Positions 1 through 30,098 of a stretch of DNA of 64,000 bases are shown here, one piece after another. Where the stretch lies: contig MCGO01000021.1 of NCBI GenBank assembly GCA_002104985.1, positions 310,001 through 374,000 on the forward strand, given 5' to 3'. This DNA comes from Rhizoclosmatium globosum. Its lineage: Eukaryota > Chytridiomycota > Chytridiomycetes > Chytridiales > Chytriomycetaceae. The notes below the pieces were generated by a model. The model made no database searches, was not told where the DNA came from, and worked only from the letters and a program-made list of their open reading frames with translations. A program made the position numbers and the translations under genes. The number at the start of each line of letters is the position of its first letter. Within the stretch, counting starts at the first letter, position 1.

Positions 1-1037
1 CTAGTTGATCAACAAAACTCACGTTCTCCATAAGTGAAAAACGAGTTGCCCTTTCTAACGTTGTAAGCAACTCCAGCAATATATGCACCAGTTTCCATCG
101 CATAACTTGAAAACGAAACGCCTAGAGCTGACTCTTGCGAAATGATTTTCAAAATCTGAGGAAGCTTGATGAAAGCTCCTCCAGCGACCAATCCAAATCC
201 CAATATTTTGGATAGAAACAGGCAAGTGCAATCAAATCGAGACAGCCATTGGAAACTGAGGAGAGAGTTGGAGCATTCTGCGCCAATAAGGGGGCGAATA
301 AAAACCGCTTGAAGGAAACCAAAGAACCCATGAAATTGAATCACATTTATAGATGGGGTTGTCCCATTCTTAGATTCTATGTCGCCCAATTCACTCTTTA
401 AGACACCAGAATCTGAGGATCTAACGGTGGAAATTACAGCAATTCCACTTGAAGTAACATCATTGTTGTCAGTGGGCAAGAGATCCTTTGATTTCCATCC
501 TGTTTCGTTGGAGTAGAGTTGAATTTTGGACTCAATGTATTCCATTAGAGGCACCGGCCACTCGTCTCCCTTGTACTGCTCAATGAATGCACCATTATGA
601 TACAGGAATACTTGTGGAAAGTCGTCTAAGTTGACGCCCTTCTGCTTGCACCAAGCCGGAGAGTCTCGACAATCCATCTTTGCCATATTGAATACAAATT
701 CCGGGTAATTTCGCTTGTAAAGTTCCTGTTGTACATCAAGCCATACCCTCGAGAACTTCTTGCTGAACTTTTCGTAGCGATCAGCATAAAAGATGAGCCA
801 GGTACTATTCTTTGACTGGATAACTTGTTCTTCAAGTTGAAAGTCTCGAATAAAGCTGATTTGGCGATCCGACTCTGATGGCCATTGACGATATAAGTCT
901 TGTTTGGATTCGCCCTGAATAGTCGGAAGGCAGCGTTAGTAGCCGATCAGGTCAAACACTGTCCCACTAAGTACCCCATGACTTAAGCATCTTCCTATCA
1001 AATAGGCGAGGACGAAGGACAGTTCCTTCCAGAGCAT
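1..1037 (-). CDS. Thioredoxin-domain / MPDU1-like PQ-loop fusion protein (3' end beyond window)
   Basis: The 3' part resembles MPDU1/Lec35, the ER PQ-loop protein needed for use of dolichol-phosphate mannose and glucose; KLPQILKII is its PQ-loop signature, followed by a second membrane segment and GEN. Ahead of it lies a thioredoxin-like fold (STWLIFYADRYEKF, then DDFPQVFLYHNG) with no CxxC pair at the expected place, so probably not a redox enzyme. I start at the ATG at 1037-1035 because it opens a hydrophobic signal-like stretch (MLWKELSFVLAYLIG) and splices in phase, after a CTAAC branch and TTCAG acceptor, to GESKQDL. The coding frame leaves the window through an intron whose donor GTGAGT lies at about position 20. 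The next gene diverges with only 30 bp between start codons. The domain fusion is inferred from one continuous spliced frame. Confidence 0.75.
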
Positions 1038-1067
1038 GCCCTGTTTGTTGCAATTTTTGCTTCCAAA

Positions 1068-2915
1068 ATGCCATTACTGACAGAGGAGGAGCTGGGCACG
1101 GATCCTACCAGAGTCTTTGAGCTTCAGGACCAAATCGGCGAAGGGTGATTAGGCGTTTTCTTTGGTGCTAGGGAAGTGGGTCTGACGTTACTTTCGCCAT
1201 CGTGACAGGTCGTTCGGGACTGTTCATCGTGCGATTCATTTGCGAACAAATACTGTAGTGGCCATCAAGATATTACCGACGGGGAAGGCGGATTTGAGCG
1301 AGAGCATCAAGGAAATCACATTCATGACGGGCATTCATTCGGAGTTCCTCGTTGAATATTACGGCAGTTACCTTCGAGATGCGGAACTTTGGGTGCGTTT
1401 CATCTAGACTTATTGTTGGGATTGGCTTAGATGGTGACTGGGTGGACTAAACCTGAGATATTGATGCTGTTTCATCCGCAGATTGTCATGGAATACTGCG
1501 GCGCTGGATCTGTTTCGGATCTTATGGAGTTCTGCAATATGACACTTTCCGAAGATCAGATATCGGTTGTTTGCCGATACGCCCTTAAAGGCTTAGCTTA
1601 TATGCATTCAATGAGAAAAATCCATCGAGACATCAAAGCAGGGTCAGTTGAAGATCATTACTCGCTTATTGCCGAAAACTTAAACGAATCAAATAGCAAT
1701 ATTTTGATCAACACACGGGGAGAAGCGAAACTGGCGGACTTTGGTGTATCTGGCCAACTATCTGATGCATCATCGAAACGGCAGACTGTCATCGGAACTC
1801 CGTTTTGGTAAGTTTAAATACGTTCAAAAAGACTAATGCTGACCCTTTGCATAGGATGGTAATGGTTTTAGTCTTTTTTAATGGGAATTCTGATTGTGTT
1901 CGAAAAAGGCACCTGAAGTCATTCAAGAAGTAGGATACGGCACACCGGCGGATATTTGGTCACTGGGAATTTCATGCATCGAAATGGCGGATGGCAGGCC
2001 ACCGTATCACGATATTCATCCTATGAGAGCAATATTCATTATTCCAACAAAGCCTCCACCACGATTAGAAGATGAGGAACGATATTCAAAAGTTTTTCGA
2101 TCATTTGTTGCAAGATGTTTGACGAAAGACCAGAAAGCGCGACCGACCGCAGAGGAGCTGCTTAATGTTTGATGTTTCTTTCATTTCCAGGTATTTTCTC
2201 ACTATTCCTCAGGACCCTTTCATTCGCCGAAATCCATCCATAAATGCTTTGTCGCCTTTATTAGCCGCAGTCTTAGATCCGCGAAGAGGAGTCACTGAAT
2301 ATTTGTCAGATCCAGATGACGAAGTCCTTGTCAGTAGTGAAATGGATGAGCCTACGTACCTGGAAGAAACAGCTGCATACCCTCTTCAGGCCCTAGATCC
2401 TGGAAGTCGCGATACAGTCCTCGAACGAAATGATGGTAGTGGCTTTGGAGATGAAGACTATGCCATTTATGAGGACTACGTTCAAAATGGTTTGTTCAGG
2501 TCATAATAACTGAAAGTATTCTGAAATCTCACAACCAGACTCTCGACCAACTTCTCCCGAACAATCAGACACATTATCAACAAGTGCCATTTCTGTTCCA
2601 GCTGAGCGGCCAAAACGAAGCTACGGAATCGGTTTCATCACAAGAGCTATTGAATATCTCTCCACTTCACCTCCTCCAAATGTGAGCTCCATCTTAATAC
2701 CTCCTGGAATGCCCACGCCTAGCGCAATGAAATCTGGGAGAACACCTTCCCCAGGAGATAGCGTCCGTGCTCGAAAACGGTCTATTACTGATGAAAGGCT
2801 ATTTATGTCCCTGGAAGATGTGAAGGATGCAGAAATTGCTGCTGTGAAGGCGAAATATCAAAGGCGGAAACAGGCAGTCATTGATGCAATTTTGATGAAG
2901 GGTGGAAGTGTATAA
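1068..2915 (+). CDS. MST/Hippo-type Ste20 kinase with C-terminal SARAH helix
   Basis: Ser/Thr kinase of about 480 residues. Visible: glycine loop GEGSFGTV, VAIK lysine, HRDIKAGNILI catalytic loop, ADFG, activation segment TVIGTPFWMAPEVIQE, and ADIWSLGI followed by HPMRAIF, all very close to animal MST1/2. A long acidic disordered linker follows, and the end (EIAAVKAKYQRRKQAV, then IDAILMKGG) matches the dimerising half of the MST SARAH helix. This separates it from the GckIII/Kic1-type kinases usual in fungi. Eight exons: introns 1145-1208, 1393-1481, 1643-1696, 1808-1854, 1859-1908, 2167-2212 and one near 2492-2538. The piece between the fourth and fifth introns is a 4-nt exon (1855-1858) required to encode W-M. 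The gene is convergent with the carrier gene, stops 45 bp apart. Confidence 0.9.
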
Positions 2916-2959
2916 AAACATTAAAGACTGTTAAATAGTTTGTATTTGATGGGAGTGAA

Positions 2960-4686
2960 TCAGACTCCAAAAGATTTCATGCTACGAGCCCTTATTCCTC
3001 CAAATAATTGCGAAGCTGTTGTCTTTTCTTGATATATCCGTTGAATTTCTTCTGTCATTCTTGGGTACTCATCAAACGAGATTTTAGCGTCGTTATTAAC
3101 ATCTGCCTGAGCAAGGATACGCATTGTTGCATCCAAAATCTGTCGTATATCGTGTTAACAGCGTTATCTATAATGAAACGTGCCATACCATATGCTCATA
3201 CTCGGCATCTTCAAATCCTGTTTTTGGTATCACTTCTCTCATAACATCAGCCAATTCTTTCTTGTCAAGAACCCCATTGCCGTCTTGGTCAAACTTTTTG
3301 AACGAGTCACGCATATCCAAGTAAGTATATGCCTCAGCAAGTTGTCTCCGGAACATTCCCAAAAACACAAATGTCACTAGAAAACTCGTTAGAGGATTAT
3401 AGTTAAAACAAAGGTAAGGCTTACAACAGAAGTGGGGACCAATACGCAAGAAATGCGTTGTAAATCCTTTGTAAAACGCAGACACTCCCTCCACCTTCAC
3501 AATGTGAGTAACCTGACATTAATGTTAGTACACATCAAACAGTCAAAATGAGCCAAACTTACGGCATCAAGTCCACTTGAATAAAGAGTCCCCTTTCCAT
3601 TCACATACGGTTGATTATAATATCGTGTACGAACAACGTCAATAGGATTCATAGCAGCACAACTCATGACACCTGAACTCATCCCAGCAATCATGTCCAA
3701 TACCCAATCATCCTTCCAATTCTTTTTCAAAATCAAATACTCCTTCATCATACTATACGTAGTCAAGTTGACACCACTCCCAACAAAGCTCCGTGCCATA
3801 CTGAGAACAGAGCCTCTGTAGAGCCCTTTCAGTCCATCCGCCTTTAGAGTTTTAACAAACGCATCCCATGTATTTTTATAAGCAAACTGGTGTCCGACAG
3901 CCTGATGTGAATTTTGCGCCGAAACTTGTGATTGTAGACGTGTTTTGATGAGTTCAAAAGGATTACAAGCAAACGCGCCCATAACACCACACAATGATCC
4001 CGCAAGCATTCGTTTCCAAGGTGGAGAAGATCCCGTCTTTGGGTCATGGATCATAGTCATTATCGGATCATACATTCCAATTCTGAAGAAATTCTTGCTC
4101 CCCTCCTTCAGCACGGCTGGAAACAAGCCTTTTTGAATCCCTCTGATTCCTTCGTGTTTAAGAATTTTGAATATGGCATCAAAACTGTTCTTGTAGACCT
4201 ATTATGGCAAAGGAACGTTGACACGTGTTATTGATGTCCGATCCTCAAAACGAGGGTATTGGTCAAGCAATTACCACAGCTTCTGTTGCAATAGCGCCGT
4301 TTGCAGCACCAGCTTTTATTGCGGTTGCGCGTTGTCCTTGTAGCTGCAGCCGAACCCTACAGATAAGGAACATATGTAAGGGCCCAGTCATCGGCACATA
4401 ACAGTTAGATTAAAGACATACTTTGCTGTATCGAATGGATTTGTGAAGAACACGGCAACTGTTGTTTTGGCAACGATTAATATCTTTAACCTCAAGGGTT
4501 TTGTCAAGATCAAAGTCGCAGCCACCAAACGACACACAAGGACGAATCTATACCTGCTGGAGCCAAAGCACTTAGTCCGAATCGTTCGGCAGCACCGAGC
4601 TTGCGTGGTTGCCCTTTCTTGGGGTAGAGGGCGGGGATTACAACTTGAGATGTCGGGCCACCTCCCATTACAGAATCTGCGCTCAT
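2960..4686 (-). CDS. Mitochondrial carrier (SLC25A34/35-Oac1-like) with C-terminal EF-hand pair
   Basis: About 450 residues. Three carrier repeats are visible: NPFDTAKVRLQLQG, NPFELIKTRLQSQ and NPIDVVRTRYYNQP, ending with RIGPHFCLTFVFLGMFRRQ as in Oac1/SLC25A34-35 carriers, so an inner-membrane dicarboxylate-type substrate is likely. The same frame continues, without any stop, into two EF-hands: loop DQDGNGVLDKKE and, after a 40-nt intron, DVNNDAKISFDE, then a basic tail ending MKSFGV. Known Ca-regulated carriers (SCaMC, aralar) carry EF-hands at the N-terminus, so this order is unusual. Introns separate AVAVFF, AKVRLQ, VVYKN, DAVTH, FCLTF and WHILD. A possible 5' UTR intron ends just before the start codon (AATCTAG). 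The Ca-control is inference. Confidence 0.85.
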
Positions 4687-4954
4687 TCTAGATTGTAATT
4701 GCGTGTGTTAGGTTCAGGAAGATAGATGATGCGGAGGGAAAACTGCTCCACCTGTCGTTGTTGTTGTGTCTTTCGGAACGCCGATGATTTGGTCGAAATT
4801 GCAAGATGTTCTAAAAAAAGACCAAATAAAGTATCTTAACAGTAACATGATTCTAGCATTTTAACAGTGTATTCTGAGTGAAAGAAACGATATGTACTCA
4901 AGTGTCATGGAATTCCCAAACAAGTAAGAAGAATTGACAGATGCTTTGAAGACA

Positions 4955-6007
4955 TCACTTTGGAAGTGCGAGGGAGAAAGACTTTGCCGCCGGTGCTATC
5001 ATGACTGCTGGAGGACGACTGTTAACAACAGGTGGACGCGACACAGCCGGCTTTGGTTTCGAATTTGTCACAGGGAGCTGAACGACTTTCGGAGGTGGTC
5101 TGTGCTGCGAGACGGGAGCTTTACTGTGAGACGTAGACAATGCACGCGAGCCGCTACTTCCAATTCCACTGGCCATCGAAGAGTCATACCGGATTGTGCT
5201 GATTTTCATTTCCTTCTTGACAGCATTCACGGCTCTTCCCATAACACTCGTCGGTCTGGACTGTGCAGAATGACCCCACCAAGATTTTTTAGGAGGTGGT
5301 GGTGCGTGTTGCAGGGATTTGGTTTGGTGAAGTTTCTGATGTTGTTCTGCGTCCTTGTACGAGCTTTTGATGTTGGCTCTTGCACGAATGAGTTTATCGT
5401 CGCGTTCCTTCTTCTTTTCCTGTATTTTGTTTGGGGTATCCGAGTTAGTGATGGTTGGAATTGTTCACATTGGAATGTCAAAGGACAAATTCACCAGATA
5501 CAGCTCTCGCCAGCTTGCAGGCTCTTGGAAATCCGGGTGTTCGGCTTCTTTGCGCAATAATATAAAGTCTTTGAGTGCTGCTGTCCTGTAATGCACTGTT
5601 TCTAATTGGTTAGAACCGTAACCCAAAATCGACCACCAAAACACCGAATCCAGAAAGATACAAACTATTCAAATCTTCATTCAGCTCGTATTCCATATGC
5701 GGGTTGTATTCCACGAGTTTCTCGAGCTGTCGAATTGTAAAGGTTACACAAACCCCTTGAAAGCAAGTATAACATACCTGCAGGAAGTTGACAGTCTTTG
5801 GAATGATTTGTTTGAGAAGGTGGCTAGGAAGGTCTCCGCGCGAGGTGCTCAAGTAATAGACCTCTGCATGTAGATCAGTATGCTGTGATGTGCAAGAAGT
5901 GCAAAGAGAAGAAGACCACTCACGATCAAAGCGTCGCTGTAGCTTATTGATACAGAGGGTCATGAGGGAGGGGACCTCGCGTTGCCGGTGATGCATTGAT
6001 GTGTTCA
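4955..6007 (-). CDS. Elongin A (transcription elongation factor B subunit 3) homologue
   Basis: Short fungal-type elongin A, roughly 260 residues. The N-terminus REVPSLMTLCINKLQRRF matches the BC-box/cullin-box helix that binds elongin C. It is followed by YYLSTSRGDLPSHLLKQIIP, QLEKLVEYNPHM and SWRELYL, the collinear elongin A signature. A lysine/arginine-rich coiled region (EKKKERDDKLIRARANIKSS) and a proline-rich basic tail complete it. Four introns were placed by signal and frame: at FDQ/VYY, LQ/LEK, DLN/MHY and LYL/EKK. Elongin A acts in the nucleus as an RNA polymerase II elongation factor and as an adaptor of cullin E3 ligases that ubiquitinate stalled polymerase. The start at 6007 is the first in-frame ATG ahead of the domain. 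Confidence 0.85.
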
Positions 6008-6332
6008 TAGTGTCGTTGAGAGCCAAAGAGACAATGCGATTTTTCTGCCTCCACCCAACACCAAAGGTTGGAAGGGGCTCAGAAGAGACAGAAGAGAGTT
6101 TTCTTTGATTGATTGATTGTTTTTAATATCATATGCGATGCAGATAAATAGCTTCCAGAGTAGCGAAAGTATGGATGTTTCCCATTTTCAATAAATCAAC
6201 TAATACTCGAGTGGAAGCTAGACCACCTATGCATGCACCGCGACTCCTTCTAGTGAATTTAAAAGTGATGAAGTAGTCAGCTTTCCATTCACCTTGTTTG
6301 CCCTAACAAGAGGCAAAACCCAAATTGGAAAA
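6008..6332. promoter_or_regulatory. Divergent intergenic region elongin A / alpha-1
   Basis: 325 bp between two divergent start codons. It is AT-rich with short direct repeats of TTGATTGATTG near 6108. It must hold promoters for both genes; no specific factor site could be assigned. Confidence 0.4.
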
Positions 6333-6755
6333 ATGACCTTCGACATTACGAACCTGTTCTCCTTCAACGGTAAAGGGCACACCAACGATCGTGCCAAGAA
6401 TGCACAGCGCTCGACAGGACTTGCGACATCCCCGCCAAACGCAGGGCTCGCAATGGGGCTCGGGCGATCAAAGTCAATTGGACGGTCGTTTGTTCCCCGC
6501 CGCGACTCAAACCACAGCGACAAATCCGCGTCCTCTAATGTCTCAAGTTTTCTCGGAGTCTTTCAAGGACCGGCGGGAACCAATAATCGCATTCGATTGA
6601 ATTCATCGACAAATAGCCGTGTTTCGTCGGAGAGCGATAACTCGATTAGTACCGCCTCGACGAAGGAGCCACAGACCCCTGTCGAGTTTATTGTGTTGCC
6701 TGTACTTCCCAAAGGTATGGGTCCTCGAAAGACAAGTGGTCAAGTGAAAGAGTGA
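6333..6755 (+). CDS. Small disordered protein, alpha family member 1
   Basis: Intronless, 140 residues, no recognised domain. The protein is Ser/Asn/Arg-rich and apparently disordered. Near the C-terminus (bases 6678-6710) it carries P-V-E-F-I-V-L-P-V-L-P followed by basic residues. This block recurs in genes at 13972, 48410, 50115 and 51245 and weakly at 49753. The ATG at 6333 is chosen as the first in-frame one, giving MTFDITNLFSF. Polyadenylation-like AATAAA elements lie at about 6839 and 6862. Function unknown; the strict conservation of one short hydrophobic block inside otherwise unlike sequence suggests a docking motif (inference). Confidence 0.7.
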   Translation: MTFDITNLFSFNGKGHTNDRAKNAQRSTGLATSPPNAGLAMGLGRSKSIGRSFVPRRDSNHSDKSASSNVSSFLGVFQGPAGTNNRIRLNSSTNSRVSSESDNSISTASTKEPQTPVEFIVLPVLPKGMGPRKTSGQVKE

Positions 6756-7469
6756 CGAGAGATCGGGCTTTCGCATCACAACCTTGAACCACAGGTACCT
6801 CAACAGTTACTTTATGAATAGAGAAGATACCAAATAGCTAATAAAATACCCCCAATACCCAATAAAATGGTCGTGTCTCCTGTTTTACCTTGAACGCTTT
6901 CCACAACTAAATAGTTTAATTGAAAAGGTTACTAGTTATTTGAATTATAACTACAGCAATTGCTTACGGCGTACAAAACCAGCATGAAAGCTTTAAATGA
7001 AGAGAATTCTACAGTTTAATGTAAGTTCCTCACTTTCATGCACAATAAAGCTATCATACAGTCTTCTCTATTACAATCTTTGATTAGTTTCAGTGAGAAA
7101 CAAACAAGGGTTGCCATAGACACTTGGAGAAGATGCAAGCCCATTATCTGGAGACGCCTCGTGGAATCACACTCTTTAGGCAACATTATACTTCTGCGTT
7201 CATAGTGCGTGTGTGATTTCAATCTTGGACCAACCAAGCAAATGGTCCAAAACGGGAGTTTGTTTGGAATTGATACTCTGCTCTTAACTTATGTATTCAT
7301 GAACAAGAATAAAGAGAGTTACTCGCAGGAAATTACAGTGAAGAGCGAAGGGACGTTGAGCAATAGATTTGAGTTCAGAAGGTGGTATTGAATTGCAGTG
7401 GAAGTGAGGAAAGACACACAAAAACTTCTTAGAAATTGCCAGCTGGCACATCCAACCAACCAACCAACA
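6756..7469. other. Intergenic region alpha-1 / beta-1
   Basis: AT-rich. It begins with two AATAAA-type signals for alpha-1. The probable 5' leader of the next gene ends in a CCAA repeat (7452-7468). No credible coding sequence seen. Confidence 0.5.
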
Positions 7470-7913
7470 ATGACACCGATACCCTCACCAACACCTTCAC
7501 ACGATGCATTCGACTATGCGGCACCTCCACTGCCACTCAGCAACGGGTTCCGACGGCCCGCATCAATGGCAGCCGTGGTTCCACTGACAATGTCTCTGTC
7601 CATGTTCAGCCTCGACGCCGCAACCTCCACCGTCGCACCGTCGCCACTACAGCACCATCTCGCCATCCCAGCCGCTCCATCTCAGGGCGCCAGAAGCCGC
7701 ACGCCGCCGGCCGATGCACCCCCAAACTCAAACTCATCCACCACCACCAACAACAACACCAACAACACCTCTGCCTCGTCCCGTCCCCGTCGTCGTGGTC
7801 GCACCAGACTCAATTGTCTGAGTAGTAGAGATAGGCCGTCGCAAGCTGATTTGCAGCTGCGTCCTGATGATCTGGCTCTGATGCAGATTGACACAGACGC
7901 CTTGTGTGTCTAA
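7470..7913 (+). CDS. Small disordered protein, beta family member 1
   Basis: Intronless, 147 residues, low complexity: Pro/Ala-rich first half, then a Thr/Asn run. Residues 108-129 carry the beta motif: RGRTRLNCL, then DRP, then ADLQL, followed by an acidic-leucine end (RPDDLALMQIDTD). The same ordered block closes the proteins at 9130, 10702, 11538 and 12200 in the same orientation, so these are tandem paralogues that kept only the C-terminal motif. Start: ATG after a CCAACCAACCAACAA leader. The composition is much GC-richer than the flanking DNA. No known domain; function unknown. Confidence 0.7.
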   Translation: MTPIPSPTPSHDAFDYAAPPLPLSNGFRRPASMAAVVPLTMSLSMFSLDAATSTVAPSPLQHHLAIPAAPSQGARSRTPPADAPPNSNSSTTTNNNTNNTSASSRPRRRGRTRLNCLSSRDRPSQADLQLRPDDLALMQIDTDALCV

Positions 7914-9129
7914 ATGTCTGTCTAACTCCGCTTGACTCCAACTTTACTACTACTGCATGCATCCACCCACTACAACAACTACTACTACTTCTAATGTCTG
8001 ACAAACCACTACTTCCATTATGACTATCACAAAATTATCCTTATAATGTTGCATTTTTCCCTTCTCTACTCTCTTACTATACTTGCCGTGGAATAATCTT
8101 GATAATGCCCTTTTCTCTATTAATCATAGTATCTTACATAAAAAGTAATAAATATTCTGTAACCTAACGAATGTCTTGGACTCATCAATATGGGATTCGT
8201 GATACCATAGTATCGTACTATCACCACAATAATAGCCAACAGCTACAACTGATTTAGCAACGATCATTTCAAATTTGAGCTCTGGTTTGTCACCAGCAAA
8301 GACATTTCGCTTCTGTGTGAATTTCGTCTGACTCAGCCAAAAAGGGAGGAGAGCCACCGTTGCATCTCTCACAACAGGGTCCAACATCCCTGACTCAACC
8401 AACAATCATAATTTGAAATCATCACACAGTTTGTGAGAGTTGTTGACTTATGGTTTCCCTTCACAGACGCTCTTTAAATTATCATTAATGACATTATATA
8501 TCCGCAGACTCAAATTAGGATGGCTTATTGAATTCGAATCGAGTAATAACTTAGACAATTATGATTACAGTATTGATTGACATGAGTTTCATATTGATAT
8601 CAATACTAACTGTGCCAGAGCCAAGCACCTCGTATATACCCGTTTCTTTTTATTTTCTGTGAGTGACCAAATAGGGCCCAAGCCCACCCGATCTCTCCAA
8701 TGTCCCACCAGTTTTTTTTGAACCAAAATGACTCAAAGTTACTTGATATGATGTTCTTATCAATCGAACGCCAGAAAATTGAAATGACGCCAGGTGAAGT
8801 CAACTGTGTTTCTTTGTCAGCGCTGTCATTGCTATCAGAACTTTAGTGATTGATGTGTAAATTAATTGACCCAATGGCCGTGAAGTATTGATGAGAATGA
8901 ACAAAGAGAAGTTATTTAATACGGATTAGATGAAGAAAGCGTTGAGAATAGATTCAGATTTAGAATGAAAATACCCATAAAGAACTTGTTTGAAGAGGAC
9001 ACCATTTGATTGTACTCATCACACACAGGAATACATGACTCGTATTCCAGCGCTTCCAGTATATACGATTTGAAATCCGTGTGCAGCAATGTTTGACCGC
9101 ATTACAAGAAATTTCTTCTTCCAAAAACG
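7914..9129. other. Intergenic region beta-1 / beta-2
   Basis: 1.2 kb of AT-rich DNA. An AATAAA at 8147-8152 probably ends the beta-1 transcript. ATGACGCCAGG at 8784-8794, followed by GAAGTCA, recurs at 9785 ahead of beta-3. Short open frames here have no coding character. Confidence 0.45.
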
Positions 9130-9558
9130 ATGTCACAAACACCAACGCCGCTGACGCCAAAGCTCACGCGCGAAACCAGTCTGGAATCGCTGCTTGACTC
9201 ACTCGCGCCGGCATCGCCGTCGTCGTCCACGTCGTCATCGCCGCGACGGAGCCTTCGCCTTGGACCGGGCCTTGACTGCGACTTTGAGTTTGAGTTTGGG
9301 CCTTTTGCGAGGACCGCCGCGTTTGAGCCGCCGCCGAAACTCGAAGTGCCGCACAAGACGTCGGCGCGAATTGCTTTTCGCGGGTCGATCAGGGACTTGG
9401 CGGCGTCGTCGTCGTCTTCGTCTCTGTCTCACTCTCAACCAACAACAACAACCCAGAGAGGCCGCAGACAGCGCATGAACTGCCTGACCGAACTCGATCG
9501 CCCGAATCCAGTGTCGCTGGAACTGTCGCCAGAAGACGAGCTGCTGCTCCTCTTATAG
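9130..9558 (+). CDS. Small disordered protein, beta family member 2
   Basis: Intronless, 142 residues. Ser/Thr/Pro-rich with an internal poly-Ser run and an acidic-aromatic patch (DCDFEFEFGPF). The C-terminus carries the beta motif RGRRQRMNCL, DRP and VSLEL, then the acidic-leucine tail SPEDELLLLL. It aligns residue for residue with the ends of beta-1 and beta-3. Start follows an A-rich leader. A (CAC)n tract lies just after the stop (9574-9593) and AATAAA at 9649-9654. Unknown function; the motif end resembles a docking or amphipathic helix (inference). Confidence 0.7.
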   Translation: MSQTPTPLTPKLTRETSLESLLDSLAPASPSSSTSSSPRRSLRLGPGLDCDFEFEFGPFARTAAFEPPPKLEVPHKTSARIAFRGSIRDLAASSSSSSLSHSQPTTTTQRGRRQRMNCLTELDRPNPVSLELSPEDELLLLL

Positions 9559-10701
9559 TCTTCTGCGCCCCTACACCACCACCACCACCACCATCCGCCT
9601 GTTCTATGACTCTTCTATGCTTCTCAAACTTACCCTGTATTAATGCTTAATAAACTTATCAGTTAATGCCCTTAACACTTCTTTGCAATCCTGTGTGTTC
9701 AAAGTGAAATGGGAGGCGGCCTAGGGAGATGAAGGTGGCACTCTTTGCCCAATGCCACCACACGTGTTTCTTGCATCTGACTCAATGACGCCAGGAAGTC
9801 ACCTGAATTGGGAGAAGACGCAATGCACGTTTTTTTCTTCTGTTCCCCGTGTTTGTGTTTTCTGGAGTTTGAGTGGAGTTTGAGTGTCTATTGACAGTGT
9901 CAAGGAAGTACATGAATTCTAAGTCTCCAATAGCTCTGCAATGCTCATTCGTTCAAAGTTGAAATGCTCACTAGCTTGTACACTTATTTGGGCAATATAA
10001 GTCAAAAAGTCTGGCCCTCTTTTTACGTCTCAGAGCATAAAAATTCGATTTCTGAGTTTCTGCGCCGTAAAAATCACTGATATCACACAAATAGGTTCGT
10101 GTGCTTGCAAGCTTGAAGTAAAATGTCATTCGTGGCAGTGCTCCACAGAAAGATTAACTGAAAAACCAAGACATAACACACGAAAACTAGAAAAAGAAGA
10201 TGTACATCCCTATTATTGCAAGTAGCAATGCAACTAAAAACCAAAACTTCGTTTCTCTCTCGAGTCAAATGATTTGTGCGTTTAATATAGGAATGAAGTA
10301 ACTTTGTAATAAGCGCAATCCTGACATTCTGACATTGAACGAAGCTGTCTTTGCCCAACACTCATTTCATTTCATTTCGATTTAAGCTTTAGTTATACAT
10401 GATTTGTGGCGTTCCAACTTTGATACCTTATCTTCATGAGATTGAGTGTTTTCAACATTTGGTTGTTTTGAGTCGAGAACCAAACCTCATTCGTCTTTGA
10501 CAATAATTGGAACCGCTGTGAATTCCAAAAGCAACCCTTTCTCAGGGAGATCACGTTGAAATCCATGGCCAAATAAACAAGTGGCTTTGGCAGGAAATTT
10601 GCCGCTCTTATCAAAAGAATTAAAGGAGATTACCTCTGGTTGAAAGAAGAAAGAGATAAGAGAAGAGACAGAAAATTCGGAAAATAGTGCGCTTCATTGC
10701 C
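9559..10701. other. Intergenic region beta-2 / beta-3
   Basis: 1.1 kb. Holds a (CAC)n tract (9574-9593), AATAAA (9649-9654) and the second copy of ATGACGCCAGG (9785-9795) followed by AAGTCACCTG. No gene seen. Confidence 0.45.
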
Positions 10702-20719: not shown

Positions 20720-22352
20720 TTAATTTTCTTCTGCGTCGACCCATTCGCATTCTGTCTCGGATTCGCCAGATTCGTTTTCAACATACTGAACTTCAGAACC
20801 AACAATAGTTTCATCTAATGATATTTTTGAGTCCGTTTTTTCCAACTCGTGTTTAGCTGCAACTGTCATCAGCTTTCTGACTAACTCGGCATCTTTTGAT
20901 TCACGAACAACTTCTTCCAACAATTGTGGGAACTGCATAATCAAGTTTTCCGCATCAAAACTGCTATATGCAACAACTTGAACTATTGCGACTGGTAAGT
21001 CAAATGGCGGGAGTGTATCACCACGAGACGACACTGCATTGACTCGTATTCTAAACTGTAACGAAATATCAGTGAAATATCTTCATAGAGACTCTAAATT
21101 AAACCTTATGTTCGATGTTGACACGGTTTGCGAACTGACCAGATGGATTGATTCCATAGTGTTTTGTCTCAAAAATTGAACTGGGCGGTGGAATACCAGA
21201 AGCCAGACGAGGAACTTCAAAAGTGAGCTAATGAAGAAGTTAAATTTGAATCTTTAAAAGTAGTTTCAACTGTACCTCTTGGATTGCATTCCAAAACTCT
21301 CCGTCAACCGTTTCCTCTCCTTTCCAACTGAGTAGATCCAAGGACAAATACTTTCTATCCAACGTAGTACCACTCATAAGATCAACTAAATCAACTGGGG
21401 AGCCTTCCATTTGTAGTTGTCGCTGACTGGATGTGTTCGCAGCCAATGAGTCTGCGCTAATACCAACTCCCTGAACCTCCTCCAACGAGACACGCACAGA
21501 AGTTATCTTGATTCTAGATTTTGGTTTCGGTCGAATGCGAAACTCAAACTTAATTTTGTCCCCAGGTCCAAATACTGTTGAGGAAAGAAATGCAGAATAA
21601 TCAAAGTTATGCCCCACACCGACGTTTTCATGCTCCCCAAACAAATCACTCTCGGACGACCAGTATCTTGCATTTTGGCCAGATTGAACGATGGCTTTCA
21701 AAGTTTGTGGTGAGTACTTGATCATTTGGATGGGCTGTTTTGATTTCAATGTGGACATAAAAAGCCTTTCGTATGACGATGTTATCATGGAAAAGTATGG
21801 ATTAAGTTCCAATTGGCGGTAAGTCGAAGATTTGTTGAATTTGGTTCCAACTTTTACAATTGCTTCAACATGATACGAGATTCTCGCCCCAAACCCCCAT
21901 TCCGGATTGGAAGCCGAGATTGAGTCGTGAATTTTGTTGATTCCTCCCCAAGAAATCGGAAACTTGAAAGGAGTGTCCCAAACTTTGAGTTCTGCATTCC
22001 ACAGATTCTCCCTCGCGTCCTGGTCTCCATCATCAGCAAACACCTCGTCAGGACCTATGGTTAGAAAGCTGAACGCCTCATATGGACTGTGCTTCCTTGC
22101 GTCTCCATTAGAAGTGAAGATCTTTCCGTCGAGGCTAGCAGAGACGCTGACAATAGGTTGACTCGATCTTATACGAATTATTCCTTCGACACGGATTGAA
22201 CTCAAGCCAAGATATCCATAAATTAGACTACTTGATCCTGGCGTTGGAAGTATCTCAACTTGACCCGGACTTGTGAGGTTGACGAGGTCCAGAATTGTCA
22301 TGTAGTTTTCAACACTCGAAATTAATGTAGAAGTGAAAGTAGAATACGGCAT
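20720..22352 (-). CDS. Arrestin-like protein
   Basis: About 510 residues in three exons (introns near 21057-21105 and 21229-21276). Arrestin-fold features: an N-terminal beta-sheet with VEGIIRIRSSQPIVSV, a WDTPFKFPISW segment placed like the arrestin core, ARISYHVEAIVKV closing the N-domain, and a C-domain FGPGDKIKFEFRI ending in RVNIEHKFRIRVN. The tail is acidic. Similarity is at fold level, so it may be an alpha-arrestin or a chytrid-specific arrestin. Arrestins adapt receptors or transporters for endocytosis; the rhodopsin-like receptors at 56-60 kb are possible but unproven clients. Confidence 0.65.
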
Positions 22353-22471
22353 TATCAACCCAGCCACGTTTGAGTTCTATTTCAAGAGATCGGGGGAGGA
22401 AAGGGTGCTTCCACAATTTTGCAGCACCCAACCTTTCCAACCGAAACAGCCACCTTCAAATCTTTCCACCA

Positions 22472-24062
22472 ATGACGAGGTTGCGGCCACTTCTGACAAC
22501 TCTCGTTGCTTTCAATTGCCTCGTAAATGCCGTGACAACACCTCAGGAGCCCCTCAGTAAGTGAAATAGTATGCAATGTTGAAACATACGTTCACACCTC
22601 GCCTTCAAGTCGATCTTGACGTGGCCGTCCGACAAAGCCAGTCATCAATATACGATATATGCACAGTCTGCCAGAGCGACATTGGCCCTATCCCAAGCTC
22701 ATGCAATATGAACCTTGTTGAACAGGAGTGCAACAATCCCAACGGCGTACCCACATACCACACGCTTGCAGGAGCCATTGTCATTCTACAAATCCGCTAC
22801 AATAGTAATTCAAACAGGAAGCTGGAGATTTTCTTTGCGGTCTGTCAACTAGTGTGGTGGGCCACCACTTACTGATTTTTGATTCACACAGAACAACAAT
22901 CCTGGAGAGGAAAGTATTACATCACTTAGTGATTACAAGAATCCGAGCAGTCCTGTCTTGGGTCCCTTTTATCCTCCTGACAAGGGTCACAACCCTGCTT
23001 TGTTCTATATAAAAGTACCAAACGTTTCTCCTGGAGACGGATACGCCATTTTCTACAGAGTAATATTTGTTTTTATGGTGAATTCCGTATTGATATCTCT
23101 ATTTGTAGTACTACCTACTCAATACCTTCACCGAATATAATGCCAGTACCATAGCGCTCTTGACTATTGACACCGATAAATCAACATGGATAACGCCGTC
23201 AATTACCACCCTGTCTTCAGCAACGCCAACAAACACGAATTCTTCATCAATTGATTCACCTTCATCGCCTGCCTCCACTGCATGGACAGCCATCATCATT
23301 TCCATGGTTGTAGTAGCTCTTGCTATGACGATTGGAGGATTTTTAGTTGGACGATTCATGAAGAAAAAGAAAGAAGCCGATCGTGTCGGGAATATGGCTT
23401 CTCCTGTATCAAGGGATCTTGTGTTGGCAGAAGCTGGACAGTTTCTTCCCTCAAACGGAGAAATCAGAGACAAAAGAGCCTCTGTTTTGCGAAATAGCGT
23501 TAGCGAGAATGGAGGGTTTCCAAATTTCAACACAGATGATGGGCATAATTCGGATGATGAAGTTATCATTTTTCGCAAGCCTGCAGACCGATCATACACA
23601 GCATCTGTAGTAAGCGGAGTATCAAGTGGAACGAATGGGTCTCAACCGAAATCAATATTGAAAAAGCGGGAGGAAGTTGAGCGAGAAGCTCTTGAAGCGC
23701 AAATGTATGACCCAATATTAATGAATCATCAGCATCAGCATCAAGAGCATACAGCACTTGCAGTTAATAATGTGAGGAATCAGAAATTCGTGAGCTTCCG
23801 GGAGGATGTACAGGTTGCTTCATTTGATTCCAAGGCTCCGGCGTCAGCGAATCCTGTGTTGCCCCAAAGTCTGTTTGCAGAGTCGGAAGAAGGGCAAATA
23901 ATTGCTGTAGAGGAGGAGGACTCTGAAGAAAATCCAGCATTAGATTTTTATGATGGAGGTGTGGAACGAGATGTGGCCATATTGATGGCCAAGGCTGTGG
24001 AAATCGAAGACGAAGATGAAGATTACAACTCGGATGTTTCTGATTCCTGGAGGCAAGAATAA
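22472..24062 (+). CDS. Gamma-1: type I membrane protein with SILK and RVxF PP1-docking motifs
   Basis: First of three tandem paralogues. Exon 1 encodes a signal peptide (MTRLRPLLTTLVAFNCLV); the splice to LDVAVRQSQ keeps frame. The ectodomain has YDICTVC and further cysteines, then FYPPDKGHNPALFYIKVP. A Ser/Thr-rich stalk leads to the membrane segment AWTAIIISMVVVALAMTIGG and a basic stop KKKKEADR. The cytoplasmic tail holds SILK (23652-23663), the block EVEREALEAQMYD, KFVSF (23784-23798), and an acidic end FYDGGVERDV...SDVSDSWRQE. SILK and RVxF are the standard protein phosphatase 1 docking motifs, in the usual order. The role as PP1 anchor or regulator is inference; the ligand-like ectodomain is unknown. 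Confidence 0.75.
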
Positions 24063-24137
24063 ACTGTGTTACTAGTTATGATTAAGAATTGATACTCTTT
24101 TTTTCTGTCATCATCTCCCATCCAATCAAGCGAAGAG

Positions 24138-25421
24138 ATGTACTACCACCTGGTGGTTATATGCATGCTATTCCTCTCGCTCTCGGTAGCCGCTCAACAG
24201 AGACTGAACATTACATTAACGGCGCCGACGTCTGGTGGTAAGGTTTCAAACTGTCCTTTCAAACTGAAACCAATATGCATTGCCAGTTCTTTCTATAAGC
24301 ATGCTTCCACCACAACAAGACGGCTTCTATAAGATATGCGACATGTGCTTGAATCAGAACTATGATCCCCTCAGCATCAATCAACTGTGTTCAAACTCGC
24401 CCTTGCAGTGGAAACTCTCCACCGAATGTGGCATTGGCAAACCAAATCCGTTTCATATGTTCCCCGGATCCATATTCAACGTCTCGGTTCAGTACGATGC
24501 GAATTCGTCAAAGCTGGTGCGGTTTGCACTGAAGTTTACTCCACCCTTAAGCAACGCTAGCTCGTACATACCAGTATCAGGTGACTTGAATGCTCAAGCT
24601 GTTGGATACTCTCCGTTTTCGTTTGCTCTTCAGGTTCCCACGACTGTGAGCGACTTTGGCTTGTTCTATTCTCTTGTGCAATTGGTGAGGATTAATTGGG
24701 ATGGGTCAAACCACTACTAACATGACCACAGTACTTCATTAACGGTACCGACAAAGGTCTTGTTTACGAAAAGATAGTATGCAATGTGACGATGGATGTT
24801 TCTAATAAGGATTGGGTATATGCAACATCTAACTCAACATTTCCTACCTGGGCCATAGCAGTCGTTGTCGGTATTGCCTGTTTTCTTATTGGAGGGGCCT
24901 TCTGGCTCTTCCAACGATGGAAGGAAGGAAAGAAAGCACAAATTGTTGCGCCACTGAGCAAGCCCGTCACATCAATTGAGCCTGACGAAGAGGAAGACAA
25001 CAAAGTTGTTGTATACCGAAAATCAATTGATGGCAATTTCCGCGATGCCAGTAGTCAGGCGTCACGCCGTTCAATTCTCAAAAATCGAGTGCAATCATTA
25101 GACGGCAACCTAGTGATGGCTGTACAAGATGAACCCATGAAAGAGAGCAAGCCTCGGTCGCAAGACGCAAAACGTGTGTTCTTCAAAGAGACTGTTCTAA
25201 CGGCTCTGGTGGATTTGAACCAGCCCCCAGCTGACGACAATGTCCCACCATCTAGCTTATTTGAGGATTCAGATGATGACGAAGATACTCATGTCGTATA
25301 TTTCAATGATGGCGGTATTGAACAAAACGTACGGGAACTGTTGAAACGTAATGTAATAGAGGAAGCGGGTGATGATACAGACAGTGATGTTTCTGACGGC
25401 TGGAGGAAAGAAGAAGAATAA
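24138..25421 (+). CDS. Gamma-2: type I membrane protein with SILK and RVxF motifs
   Basis: Begins 75 bp after gamma-1. Signal peptide MYYHLVVICMLFLSLSVAA; intron joins TSG to DGFYKICDMCLNQ, the same CxxC block as its sisters. The ectodomain has FHMFPGSIFNVSVQYDAN, matching gamma-3 HVLPGSRVFLQIEYN. Membrane segment WAIAVVVGIACFLIGGAFWL is followed by a basic stop. Tail: SILK (25071-25082), KRVFF (25170-25184), LFEDSDDDED, and FNDGGIEQNVRELL ending SDVSDGWRKEEE. Ectodomains are highly diverged while tail motifs are held. No family in memory matches; function is inferred only from the docking motifs. Confidence 0.75.
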
Positions 25422-25477
25422 ACATAATTGATAGATTAAACGATACTATGGACATTGTATTTTCTGAAAGGAATTCA

Positions 25478-27118
25478 ATGCGAATCCCAATCTCCCTCAT
25501 TGCACTGATGTCAGTGTCGGCCTTACCCACCAGTAAGCTACCTCATTATCTTTTGTGAGTACTAACCTGTTGATCTGGCAGCTACTCTTCCGCATGGGCC
25601 GCTCGGAGTCTCAGTCTCGCTGGCATCGCAGAACCCCGACATCTTCGACTATTGCGGCGTCTGCGAGCCGTACCTCCTCTCCTCAAACATCACCGTCCCT
25701 CAAACAACCGTTAATGTTCAACGCCTGACAGAATGCATAACATCAGGCTTTGACTTCCAGGACGAGTGTCAAGGTGGTACTAGGCCAATTCATGTCCTTC
25801 CTGGATCTAGAGTCTTTCTTCAGATCGAATACAATGTCAAAATTGCAAACAAAACACAGTTTGTGCTGAGGTATCTTCTACCGGTGAGTCCCTTGTGACT
25901 GTCCAATCAGATATTGGATGTGGTGGTTCTAATACACCCTTGAACAGCCAACTGTCAAAGACGCTATATTCCCTTGGAATGATACTCAAATATCGCCTCA
26001 ATTCTATCCTGCTGATTACCGCAGTGGTTTCGTGTATAACGTTTCAATTTGGCCCAATGTATCGGCAGTTGGTATTGGTGCCAAGAATTGGCTCTATCCC
26101 GATGGACACTATCAGCTTGGATACTTTGTAAGTACTCCAGGCCTTGCCACAAGTCTTAACCAGCCTCATTGACATCCTTAATTTATAGACTTTTGGTCTT
26201 ACTCAACAACCCACCGACTTTATCTTTCAAGTCATACGGAACGTTACGATTGATGCGTCTCGGCAGGATTGGATTGTCCTACCGTCGGCAACTGCCACCC
26301 TCGCAGTAACCTCGACACCAACTCCATCTCCAGCACCAACAGATAACAATGTGACGTACCTTTTAATTATAGCATGTCTTCTCGGCGCCACGATTATCTT
26401 TATGGTAGCAGGATTCTTGTATTCTCGTTACAGAAAGAAAAAGCGCGCAGAGGAAGCAGCCTCTCAATCCCCACCAAGCTTCTTTGGAAACAATCCAATT
26501 ATACCAGACCTCAACAATGACGATGCAAGCGATAGAGAATCCATGGTTGTCTTCAAAAAGTCCGGGCACGGAACGTACACACCGTCTATGGTTAGTTCTT
26601 CGGCGGTAGGGTCGTCGATTGGGCTCAAAGGAATTTTGAAAAGTCGAAAAGAGGTGGAGAATGAAGTGTTGGAAGCACAAATGTACGATACTGTTGTATT
26701 GAAGTTACAACAGCGACGGAGTATGCCTGATGCTCAGGCATCCGTGACAGGTGAAAACACTTGGCTCGAAAATACTTCGGAGGCGAGTAGTGGTGGTCGA
26801 GTTGGTGGAGGGTCAGGGAATGGAAAGCGTGTCATGTTCAAACCAATGGTGGAAATGGCTATTGTTGATCTATCGAAGCCTCCTGCTTTGAACGCAATTC
26901 CAAACGGTCTTTTTGATGATTCTGACGAAGAGGATGCCGAGGAAGAAGATTCTACAGGCTTTGTGGATTATCACGATGGAGGAATTGAGAAGGGCATGAA
27001 AGGGATTCTTGGAAAGAAGGTGGAAATTGAAGACGATGAAATTGAAAGCGACAAGAAGGAGCTGGAAGATGGTGATGACAGTAGTGGTGATGATGATGAT
27101 TGGAGGAAAGGGGAATAA
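25478..27118 (+). CDS. Gamma-3: type I membrane protein with SILK-like and RVxF motifs
   Basis: Begins 57 bp after gamma-2. Signal peptide MRIPISLIALMSVSALP, then LGVSVSLASQNPDIFDYCGV with the CxxC block, HVLPGSRVFLQIEYN, several N-glycosylation sequons, and a Thr/Pro stalk. Membrane segment TYLLIIACLLGATIIFMVAG; basic stop YRKKKR. Tail: GILK (26630-26641, fits [GS]IL[RK]), EVENEVLEAQMYD, KRVMF (26825-26839), LFDDSDEEDAEEED, YHDGGIEKGM and an acidic DDDDWRKGE end. Four exons (introns near 25532-25581, 25884-25947 and 26130-26188), the same plan as the sisters. PP1 recruitment is inference. Confidence 0.75.
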
Positions 27119-27204: not shown

Positions 27205-28128
27205 TTATTCGTGGGCCTTTTGAAACGTTGATGCAGCTCGTCGCAAAGTTTTGACACTTGCATCACATTCCCTTGCAACCAGATCGTCACCATGGGCAAC
27301 TGATATATGAAGTACATTCAGCTTACGTGCCGCTTCTGCCAACTCCTCTTCAGCCCACTTTCTTGCCACGTCCTTGTTTTCAACAAACATGAACCGTCCA
27401 ATTGCAGTGCATCCAAATCCGCATGCCGTTCCAATTGTGAGTAAAATTGGGTCACAGTCATTCGAAGTAGGATCAATATTGAAGAGAAGATCACACACGA
27501 TAAGCGAATGTGCGTTATTTGGCGACCCTTCATGTTTTACGAAGTAAACCAATTCCCCGGCATCAGGATAAAGACCTTTCGGTTCCATGTAAAGAATTCT
27601 ATCATTTTGCACAGATTTTGACGGATCGTACTTTGTGAATGTATCCTCCACGGTCTGTGAGACTTTGACAGCTTTTGAAACCTGGGTGATTGCTTTTGAA
27701 GGACAAACCACCTTCGCATCAGGATACTCCCTGGCCCAGGCAGCTGCATCCAAGCGATGCATTTCGTTTGGAACGATAATAAAAGCGACTTTTCCGAGCG
27801 AGTTGAGTTCGTCTTTCACGGACTGGTTCACGCAGATTGGCGAGTGGACACACAGGCCCTGCTCCGTGCGCACAACGACCATGCGCCGCTTCATGCGCGG
27901 ACCATTCGGCGGCAGCGACGCGACGAGAGTCCACACATTCGGCGCGACTTGTTTCAGCGCCGGCGAGTGCGGGAACACTTTCATCTTCCAGTGCACCGCG
28001 GCGTCGGGCACGGGCGTCCACGTGCGCATCGCCGTCACGGCCACGCGCCGCTTCAGCCACCGTGGTACTACGTATAACAAGCCGGCGAGGACGCCGAGCG
28101 TCGTGAACAACACAGCGATCAATCCCAT
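27205..28128 (-). CDS. DUF4336-type protein with N-terminal membrane anchor
   Basis: Intronless, 307 residues. N-terminal hydrophobic segment MGLIAVLFTTLGVLAGLLYV, then KRRMVVVRTEQGLCVHSPI and LNSLGKVAFIIVPNEMH, the recognisable start of the DUF4336 family, a metallo-beta-lactamase-like fold whose biochemical role is not established. Later blocks: YPDAKVVCPSKA, GELVYFVKHEGS and LNVLHISVAHGDDLV. GC-rich first third (bases 27840-28100). Transcription is convergent with the gamma genes and divergent from delta-1. Start is the first ATG ahead of the anchor; upstream in-frame sequence is AT-rich. Confidence 0.75.
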   Translation of the reverse strand: MGLIAVLFTTLGVLAGLLYVVPRWLKRRVAVTAMRTWTPVPDAAVHWKMKVFPHSPALKQVAPNVWTLVASLPPNGPRMKRRMVVVRTEQGLCVHSPICVNQSVKDELNSLGKVAFIIVPNEMHRLDAAAWAREYPDAKVVCPSKAITQVSKAVKVSQTVEDTFTKYDPSKSVQNDRILYMEPKGLYPDAGELVYFVKHEGSPNNAHSLIVCDLLFNIDPTSNDCDPILLTIGTACGFGCTAIGRFMFVENKDVARKWAEEELAEAARKLNVLHISVAHGDDLVARECDASVKTLRRAASTFQKAHE

Positions 28129-28328
28129 TTTTGTTGATTTTATTAATAATAATATGGAAGAGAAATAGAAATAGAGAAAGTACCAGATAAAAATAATTTT
28201 AAGCAAATAAAGGTTCTTCAATCGTCCCGTCGGCTCTATGAAGCTGTCTCCCTCATTGAGATAGATCCACACGGAACTGTCCCGCCCTCTTTAAAACACT
28301 TGCCAATTCACTGACTTCTTATACAAGA

Positions 28329-28613
28329 ATGAAATTCAACATGGCAGCGTTCATTGGCACAGTTGTATTCTTGGAAGGCATTGCTGCTTCTACAACTTCA
28401 AATTCCAAGGGCAGCATACATAGGCGAGCCGCAGTGGATGCCCAACTCGCATTCTCTACAATTTTTGTTATTCTCGTGTGTTGTGGCCTAATTTGGGCTG
28501 CACTGGCCTTCCTGTGTCAGCCCAAAGAAGAGGAACGACCAGTTTTCCCTGAAATGGCGTCTCTGGCTTCACCACCTCGCAACACTCAGCAGTATATTGT
28601 GGTCGTCGGTTGA
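28329..28613 (+). CDS. Delta-1: miniature type I membrane protein
   Basis: Intronless, 94 residues. Signal-like N-terminus (MAAFIGTVVFLEGIAAS), a short luminal part with dibasic HRR, membrane segment FSTIFVILVCCGLIWAALAF, and a short tail ending QYIVVVG. The plan (signal, dibasic pair 8-12 residues before the membrane, single pass, hydrophobic C-terminal tetrapeptide) recurs in the next three genes. A Kex2-type cut at RR would release a very short peptide (inference). Unknown function. Confidence 0.6.
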   Translation: MKFNMAAFIGTVVFLEGIAASTTSNSKGSIHRRAAVDAQLAFSTIFVILVCCGLIWAALAFLCQPKEEERPVFPEMASLASPPRNTQQYIVVVG

Positions 28614-28864
28614 TGCTTCTCGTTGTATTTTACGTGACCGTAAATCCCGTTTCATTCGAAGTACAGTTGGAGTTAAAGTTGTAGTTAATTGATAAATAAA
28701 TCAACAGAGTATGTTATTAACGTAGATAGTCTTTCAATATTTTAAGAGAAGGCAATCAATTGGCACAATTAAACGGCGGCAAGTGAATTGGTTTTGAATT
28801 TTGGCGGCATCCCAAACTTCACAAAAGCCCCGGCTCTAGACTTCAAAATACTCAATTCACAGTC

Positions 28865-29137
28865 ATGCTAAACAATCTATACAAAGCAATTATAGTGTTG
28901 CCACTTCTTCAAATTACCATAGCATTTCCTCTGATGCTAACCCGGCGAGACTCTACTTCAGAAACTGGCCAACTTGTCTTTGGAGGTCTAGTCCTCATAT
29001 GCGTAGCATGTGCCTTGGGATACGTGATCATCACATTCCTACGAAATAGAACAGACAAGCAAACTAAAGTTGCTGGTGAAATTCAAGGCCAAGAAATAAA
29101 ACCCTTTGTCTTTCCTGGAGCATATATCCCTGTATAA
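28865..29137 (+). CDS. Delta-2: miniature type I membrane protein
   Basis: Intronless, 90 residues. Signal peptide KAIIVLPLLQITIAFPL, luminal MLTRRDSTSETGQ, membrane segment LVFGGLVLICVACALGYVII, tail with FVFPGAYIPV as the last residues. Nearly collinear with delta-3 (RRDSTSSTTQIAFGSLVLIC and FPGRYIPI), so the two are recent duplicates. The conserved hydrophobic C-terminus could be a PDZ-type or sorting signal (inference). An AATAAA overlaps the region after the stop. Confidence 0.65.
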   Translation: MLNNLYKAIIVLPLLQITIAFPLMLTRRDSTSETGQLVFGGLVLICVACALGYVIITFLRNRTDKQTKVAGEIQGQEIKPFVFPGAYIPV

Positions 29138-29267
29138 GTTGCCATTTATTTAGAGTCGTAATAAAGTCAGTGTTGTAAGCTACCTATGAAAACAAAATGT
29201 GGCTGCGCTCTTTTGATGTTTGACCAAGCTGAGGTTCTACAACACTCCCAAAAAACTATCATCACAG

Positions 29268-29558
29268 ATGCTGTCGATTCCATTCCTCGCATTCATAATG
29301 CTGCCATTCCTCCACCTCTCAATGGCGCTACCCCTGCACATTCAACCGCAGCATCGACGAGACTCAACTTCATCAACAACCCAAATCGCTTTTGGTTCCC
29401 TAGTCCTCATCTGTATAGTTTGCGCCATTGGATACGTTTCAATCACATTCGCGCGAAACAGGAGTCAACAAAGCGATAAGCAGGATGATCAAGAACAGCT
29501 GGTTGAGGCGAGGAAGAAGGACGAGGGTGCATTCCCTGGAAGATATATTCCAATTTAA
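29268..29558 (+). CDS. Delta-3: miniature type I membrane protein
   Basis: Intronless, 96 residues from the ATG at 29268. Signal peptide MLSIPFLAFIMLPFLHLSMA, luminal part with HRRDSTSSTTQ, membrane segment IAFGSLVLICIVCAIGYVSI, charged tail and terminal FPGRYIPI. The upstream in-frame extension would destroy the signal peptide, which decides the start. Nearest relative is delta-2. Confidence 0.65.
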   Translation: MLSIPFLAFIMLPFLHLSMALPLHIQPQHRRDSTSSTTQIAFGSLVLICIVCAIGYVSITFARNRSQQSDKQDDQEQLVEARKKDEGAFPGRYIPI

Positions 29559-29631
29559 TTAAGGAATAGGAAGAATAAAGAATCGATTTAGTGTTCTTGT
29601 TTTTATCCACAAATTGCGTGTGTCTTGCTCA

Positions 29632-30098
29632 ATGATCCACGCACTCCTGTTCCTTCTCTCATCGGCTCTTGCGGCGGTTGCCCTTCCAGGTACGGCTTAT
29701 AAGCTTCCTTATCAATTGATCTATCGAGCTCCTGAAGTTGGCAGTCGGATTGGTGGTGGTTGTCTCACAATCACTCAATCACTAATGCTCTCCTTCACCC
29801 ACCATCACCTCCTCCCAATCCCAACTCTAATCCCTTGATGCCAATCTAACTCAATACTCTGCAATACGTAGCCATGTCCAACTCCCATGAGCTTGTTCGA
29901 CGAGGAACCGTAGACGGACTCGCCCAAAAGATCTTTATCGTCATCTTCTGTACACTGATTGGAGGTGCATTGATTTACGTTGCCGTTGGATTCATTCGAA
30001 GTGGAGCGGAGGACAGGAAGAAGCGGAAGGTGAAGGAGGCAGCCGCAAAGGCTCAGGCTGCTGAGGCCCAGATGCACACTTCCATTGCCCCGCAGTGA
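29632..30098 (+). CDS. Delta-4: miniature type I membrane protein (spliced)
   Basis: Two exons. Exon 1 codes for the signal peptide MIHALLFLLSSALAAVALP; a long intron (about 29689-29872) ends AATACGTAG; exon 2 gives MSNSHELVRRGTVDGLAQ, membrane segment IFIVIFCTLIGGALIYVAVG and a Lys/Ala/Gln tail ending SIAPQ. It keeps the dibasic RR ahead of the membrane but has lost the YIP-type end. The tail is a predicted charged helix. Unknown function. Confidence 0.6.

Follow-up and report, generated by a model that had tools for sequence, protein, structure and literature searches.

Paired SILK and RVxF motifs in the tails of tandem chytrid membrane proteins: a candidate family of transmembrane PP1 anchors

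Could a fungus hold protein phosphatase PP1 at a membrane behind a receptor-like ectodomain? The question is raised by three consecutive genes (genes 1 to 3) of Rhizoclosmatium globosum, a member of the Chytriomycetaceae in the Chytridiales, which lie in a stretch of 64,000 nt (contig MCGO01000021.1, positions 310,001-374,000, forward strand; hereafter the window). PP1 specificity comes from targeting subunits, and a sequence-only reading had proposed the three gene products as transmembrane anchors of PP1 on the basis of SILK and RVxF docking motifs in their tails. From motif conservation and comparison with the PP1 of the same genome, we conclude that the genes probably represent a family of membrane PP1 anchors, whose tails would act as PP1 regulatory subunits. 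Published work is cited by PMC identifier.

The motif pair was rechecked against the DNA. All six positions given in the sequence-only reading, for SILK or GILK and for the RVxF variants KFVSF, KRVFF and KRVMF, proved exact (Table 1), and the LF.[DE]S, DGG[VI]E and W-R-[QK] blocks it had described were confirmed in the tails. A six-frame scan of the window (449 open reading frames (ORFs) of at least 60 residues) found [GS]IL[KR] in 9 and RVxF in 120. SILK followed by RVxF 15-80 residues further on occurs in three ORFs, which are exactly the three tails.

The layout claimed for the trio is present in all three gene models: an N-terminal hydrophobic signal (called by eye), a Cys-containing ectodomain, one membrane helix (assigned by hydropathy) and an acidic tail. 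The helix is preceded by 207-237 residues, with 6, 6 and 4 Cys in genes 1 to 3 when the signal is included, and is followed by 4-6 Lys or Arg within 15 residues; the tails contain no Cys and 19-22% acidic residues. Across 14 proteins of the family, N-glycosylation sequons are about three times denser before the helix (74 in 3,244 residues) than after it (25 in 3,253 residues), an excess that fits a type I topology; four Chytriomyces tails carry 3-5 sequons each. The window tails may be disordered. In one predicted model the confidence score pLDDT is below 50 across residues 310-486, a result that a shallow alignment could also produce. The strong divergence noted for the ectodomains was borne out, with 24-30% identity within the trio, and the ectodomain of an Obelidium protein is a beta-sandwich in a structure predicted with modest confidence. 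No Pfam match reached the cut-off in the three window tails or in ten relatives.

Relatives were collected from one single-sequence search, which gave three proteins, and two profile searches, which gave the same ten. Among the matches listed, they are confined to one chytrid group and come from R. globosum, Siphonaria sp. JEL0065, Obelidium mucronatum, Podochytrium sp. JEL0797, Chytriomyces confervae, C. hyalinus and C. cf. hyalinus. Both Siphonaria models hold two tails each and resemble fused neighbours, and two Podochytrium genes are numbered consecutively. This gives 14 tails: those of the three window genes, four Siphonaria model halves and seven other proteins, with the public entry for gene 3 counted once. 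Loss of the SILK and RVxF positions in related species that conserve the membrane protein had been named as one outcome that would refute the proposal, but both are kept: every one of the 14 tails, from five genera, has [GS]ILK on the N-terminal side of K-[FKRH]-V-[SFMVAI]-F, at a distance of 33-66 residues.

Omission of four near-duplicates left an alignment of ten rows, in which 202 columns were ranked for conservation. The I, L and K of SILK and the K, V and F of RVxF are invariant, and the motif columns rank high (F 2, the motif Lys residues 8 and 9, I 11, V 17, L 27, S/G 34), whereas the x positions of RVxF, ranked 68 and 148, are free to vary. Fixed residues alternating with free ones are the pattern that side chains bound in pockets predict. 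A hydrophobic residue is found at F+8 and at F+9 in nine of ten rows each, where a PhiPhi motif could sit. The first SILK residue varies only from S to G, the sole variation of this motif permitted by the authors of PMC5005033, and one Siphonaria tail carries KKVAF, reported as an RVxF-like motif of yeast eIF2-gamma (PMC6506691).

A candidate partner for both motifs is encoded in the same genome. The PP1-type N-terminal domain was found above cut-off at 11 genomic places, and loci read by eye (L020, L024, L026, L028) contain at least four genes resembling the PP1 catalytic subunit (PP1c). Two of these genes are adjacent on a single contig, and second copies occur on further contigs. A further phosphatase gene has a long N-terminal extension and appears PPZ-like by eye. 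One hand-spliced R. globosum PP1c is identical to human PP1-gamma at 253 of 294 positions over residues 7-300. Seven residues of the SILK pocket and acidic patch (54, 56, 86, 166, 167, 242 and 287) are identical in it, as is L55, which we take to belong with them, giving eight of eight; of the twelve residues that we assume to line the RVxF pocket, eleven are identical, the exception being M290, replaced by L. The seven are those named in PMC10066265. Across 57 fungal species 64 PP1 were counted, and every fungal PP1 studied retains the SILK site, which PPZ does not (PMC8836105), so that a SILK-RVxF pair would favour PP1.

The paralogues do not appear to be recent copies. In a tree of the family, gene 3 was grouped (96/98) with copies from Obelidium, Siphonaria and Podochytrium, and gene 2, less surely, with the other Siphonaria copy (92/90), a placement flagged as a possible long-branch join. 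As genes 2 and 3 are placed with different relatives, the trio probably diverged long ago, which suggests that the SILK and RVxF motifs outlasted old duplications. Within the R. globosum trio, identity is 8-18% in the linker that separates SILK from RVxF and 35-56% in the RVxF block.

How far these observations argue for PP1 depends on what else could have produced them. A loose RVxF arises in 15-33% of shuffled tails and is thus uninformative by itself; a published estimate puts its occurrence at about 25% of proteins (PMC4794898). That the motifs are chance products of fast-evolving disordered tails is nevertheless hardly credible, given that the ordered pair appears in only 0.01-0.075% of shuffled tails (20,000 shuffles per tail), that it is kept in all 14 tails, and that column permutation of the alignment placed it in all ten rows in none of 20,000 runs. 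Several points do weigh against docking to PP1. The original consensus [RK]x0-1[VI]{P}[FW] matches all 14 tails, but of two later refinements printed in PMC3792071, [KRL][KRSTAMVHNQ][VI]{FIMYDP}[FW] matches eight of the 14 and none of the three window genes, and [HKR][ACHKMNQRSTV]V[CHKNQRST][FW] matches none at all; what excludes the window genes is F or M at x, or an F in front of V. The hydrophobic residues at x are unusual: S or T occupies this position in over half of RVxF regulators (PMC10066265) but in one of the 14 tails, so that the phospho-switching described for RV[S/T]F (PMC8786283) would not be general in the family. The SILK of the animal protein LAP1B does not mediate PP1 binding, a warning that a SILK may be idle, although that SILK is not conserved in rodents and follows the working RVxF (PMC3792071). 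The tails are homologous and hence count as fewer than 14 independent cases, and the tree contains long branches. In addition, V at F+4, D at F+10 and DGG.E are as conserved as the motifs, so that another binder could drive the conservation, and further conserved blocks (LF.[DE]S, DGG[VI]E and, in most tails, D..WR) lie outside the motif pair, for which reason PP1 docking is probably not the sole job of the tail. The proposal of transmembrane PP1 anchors is supported in part, for the motif pair, kept across the genera, and for the docking residues of the one PP1c, M290 excepted, but not for agreement of the window RVxF sites with either stricter definition.

The same conservation of whole blocks beyond both motifs, together with the mismatch of the window copies to the strict definitions, would be expected if the tail were kept for another partner or for trafficking and SILK and K-x-V-x-F merely resembled PP1 motifs. 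We consider this unlikely: the pair is restricted to three of the 449 window ORFs, the pattern of fixed and free positions is the PP1 one, and a scan of the last 240 residues of the 14 proteins revealed no alternative motif common to the family (B56-type LxxIxE in 2 of 14, FxxRxK in 2 of 14, calcineurin PxIxIT in none). A different role for PP1 binding itself is suggested by Inhibitor-2 (PPP1R2/Glc8, PF04979), which shares the order [GS]ILK, RVxF-like site and aromatic/acidic block. Were the family a membrane-tethered Inhibitor-2, its third block, [HYDR][FY][NHY]DGG, would cover the active site of PP1 in the manner of HYNE, inhibiting the enzyme rather than targeting it. Residues His148, Tyr149 and Glu151 of Inhibitor-2 block the PP1 active site (PMC10066265), H-F-N-D-G followed by acidic residues recalls H-Y-N-E-G, and a profile of the block scores a rat Inhibitor-2 piece above 99.5%, and an R. 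globosum Inhibitor-2 piece above 96.7%, of their own shuffles. However, this profile aligns the acidic and R.L..K stretches and not HFND with HYNE, its scores of 7.3 and 8.2 bits are hardly higher than those of the reversed pieces (5.8 and 7.2), and a short Plasmodium piece gives no match. The IPP-2 profile (PF04979) finds no match in eight relatives at E up to 0.1 nor, with the E limit raised to 10, in two further relatives and the three window tails. HYNE occurs in none of the ten tails and HFND in five, and in four of the ten, including all three window genes, the equivalent His is D, Y, D or R. Inhibitor-2 is itself soluble, and a soluble Inhibitor-2-like gene exists elsewhere in the genome. 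A tethered inhibitor appears very improbable, and membership of the Inhibitor-2 family is rejected for want of a PF04979 match at the E values given and of a HYNE block in the ten tails. The soluble gene (KGILK, ITEPKTP, QHYN) lies on contig C370, and C65 carries another copy of it in altered form (L033-L035); its Pfam matches are just under the curated cut-off.

Membrane anchors of PP1 are already reported in animals, and the arrangement is thus not new as such. Polycystin-1, an animal, multi-pass membrane protein, offers one comparison. It has a cytosolic tail that carries a conserved RVxF and with which PP1 co-precipitates, but is without SILK, and mutation of the V and F blocks its dephosphorylation while leaving PP1 binding intact (PMC3366979). 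LAP1B combines one membrane helix with RVxF and SILK in one protein and has demonstrated PP1 binding, but it is a type 2 protein of the nuclear envelope in which SILK comes after the working RVxF (PMC3792071). In Ki-67 and RepoMan, too, a hydrophobic pair and a stretch of D..[LM]P type come after the RVxF; their KiR-SLiM, FDxxLP(P/A)N(T/S)PL (PMC5005033), is missing from the chytrid family, as judged by eye from the tail alignment. Fungal wall sensors were likewise set aside, as no Mid2 or WSC Pfam domain was found in eight relatives (E up to 0.1) or in two others (E up to 10); one Chytriomyces protein is labelled Mid2 domain-containing by its source. Among fungal regulators of Glc7/PP1, RVxF docking is common ground and Rif1 has a putative SILK along with RVxF, while in the available portions of the review PMC6506691 none is described as a receptor-like membrane protein. 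A search of full-text literature, whose coverage leaves out most subscription papers, found no fungal membrane protein with a SILK-RVxF pair. Within these sources, the statement that such a membrane family is not known in fungi stands.

If the tails do anchor PP1, the family would comprise single-pass type I membrane proteins of chytrids around Chytriomycetaceae, in which RVxF would serve as the primary anchor in the hydrophobic groove of PP1 and the upstream SILK as a second grip. The helix would then hold PP1 at a membrane, presumably the plasma membrane. The ectodomain may bind a different ligand in each paralogue, and the divergent ectodomains may in this way make docking, or the access of putative substrates, depend on different putative ligands outside. 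A bolder extension, possible but on balance doubtful, is that surface receptors of zoosporic fungi signal via a phosphatase and not a kinase: the ectodomain would read a cue and the SILK-RVxF tail would switch membrane-held PP1 on or off, with the DGG block reaching over the active site or substrate groove.

Table 1. Genes, membrane helices and tail motifs of the candidate PP1 anchors, in window positions.
Feature	Position	Strand	Remarks
Gene 1	22472..24062	+	482 aa; exons 22472-22556, 22610-22851, 22892-23059, 23109-24062; hand-spliced, with paralogy
Gene 1 membrane helix	23292..23348	+	best hydropathy stretch
Gene 1 SILK	23652..23663	+	
Gene 1 RVxF variant KFVSF	23784..23798	+	
Gene 1 LFAES (23871-23885) to DGGVE (23952-23966)	23871..23966	+	
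Gene 2	24138..25421	+	395 aa; exons 24138-24237, 24287-24684, 24732-25421; hand-spliced
Gene 2 membrane helix	24855..24911	+	best hydropathy stretch
Gene 2 SILK	25071..25082	+	
Gene 2 RVxF variant KRVFF	25170..25184	+	
Gene 2 LFEDS (25257-25271) to DGGIE (25308-25322)	25257..25322	+	
Gene 3	25478..27118	+	488 aa; exons 25478-25532, 25582-25883, 25948-26127, 26189-27118; public protein BCR33DRAFT_716766
Gene 3 membrane helix	26363..26419	+	best hydropathy stretch
Gene 3 GILK	26630..26641	+	
Gene 3 RVxF variant KRVMF	26825..26839	+	
Gene 3 LFDDS (26909-26923) to DGGIE (26975-26989)	26909..26989	+	

Gene models were built with hand-picked short GT-AG introns. All 488 residues of the gene 3 model are identical to the public protein, which has 10 additional N-terminal residues. 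No public protein for genes 1 and 2 was among the matches listed in the single-sequence and profile protein searches, and their splicing therefore rests on splice signals and paralogy; in gene 1, the donor of intron 2 at 22852 is uncertain. The assembly that holds the window comprises 56.9 Mb in 420 contigs. One of these, C96, begins inside gene 3, and its positions 1-9900 (L032) are 99.7% identical to window positions 25689-15778 and redundant with them. The PP1 loci likewise lie on contig pairs, so that either two haplotypes or duplicated contigs seem to be present in the assembly. Adjoining the cluster is an ORF on the reverse strand (21240-22376) that matches Arrestin_C below threshold (E 1.4e-4; 22.6 bits, cut-off 27.7). 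Beyond gene 3 lie a reverse-strand ORF (27205-28290) with sub-threshold DUF4336 and metallo-beta-lactamase-like matches and, on the forward strand (28260-30098), four successive short ORFs of 117, 116, 113 and 82 residues with one membrane segment each by eye. The second and third of these resemble paralogues, and none of the four has a Pfam match above cut-off.

PP1 docking by the family is directly testable with peptides and PP1c. If binding proves true, it would validate RVxF variants with a hydrophobic x, which scans with stricter patterns miss, and fungi would gain a receptor-like mode of PP1 targeting, in which a conserved tandem family with variable ectodomains keeps the enzyme at a membrane.

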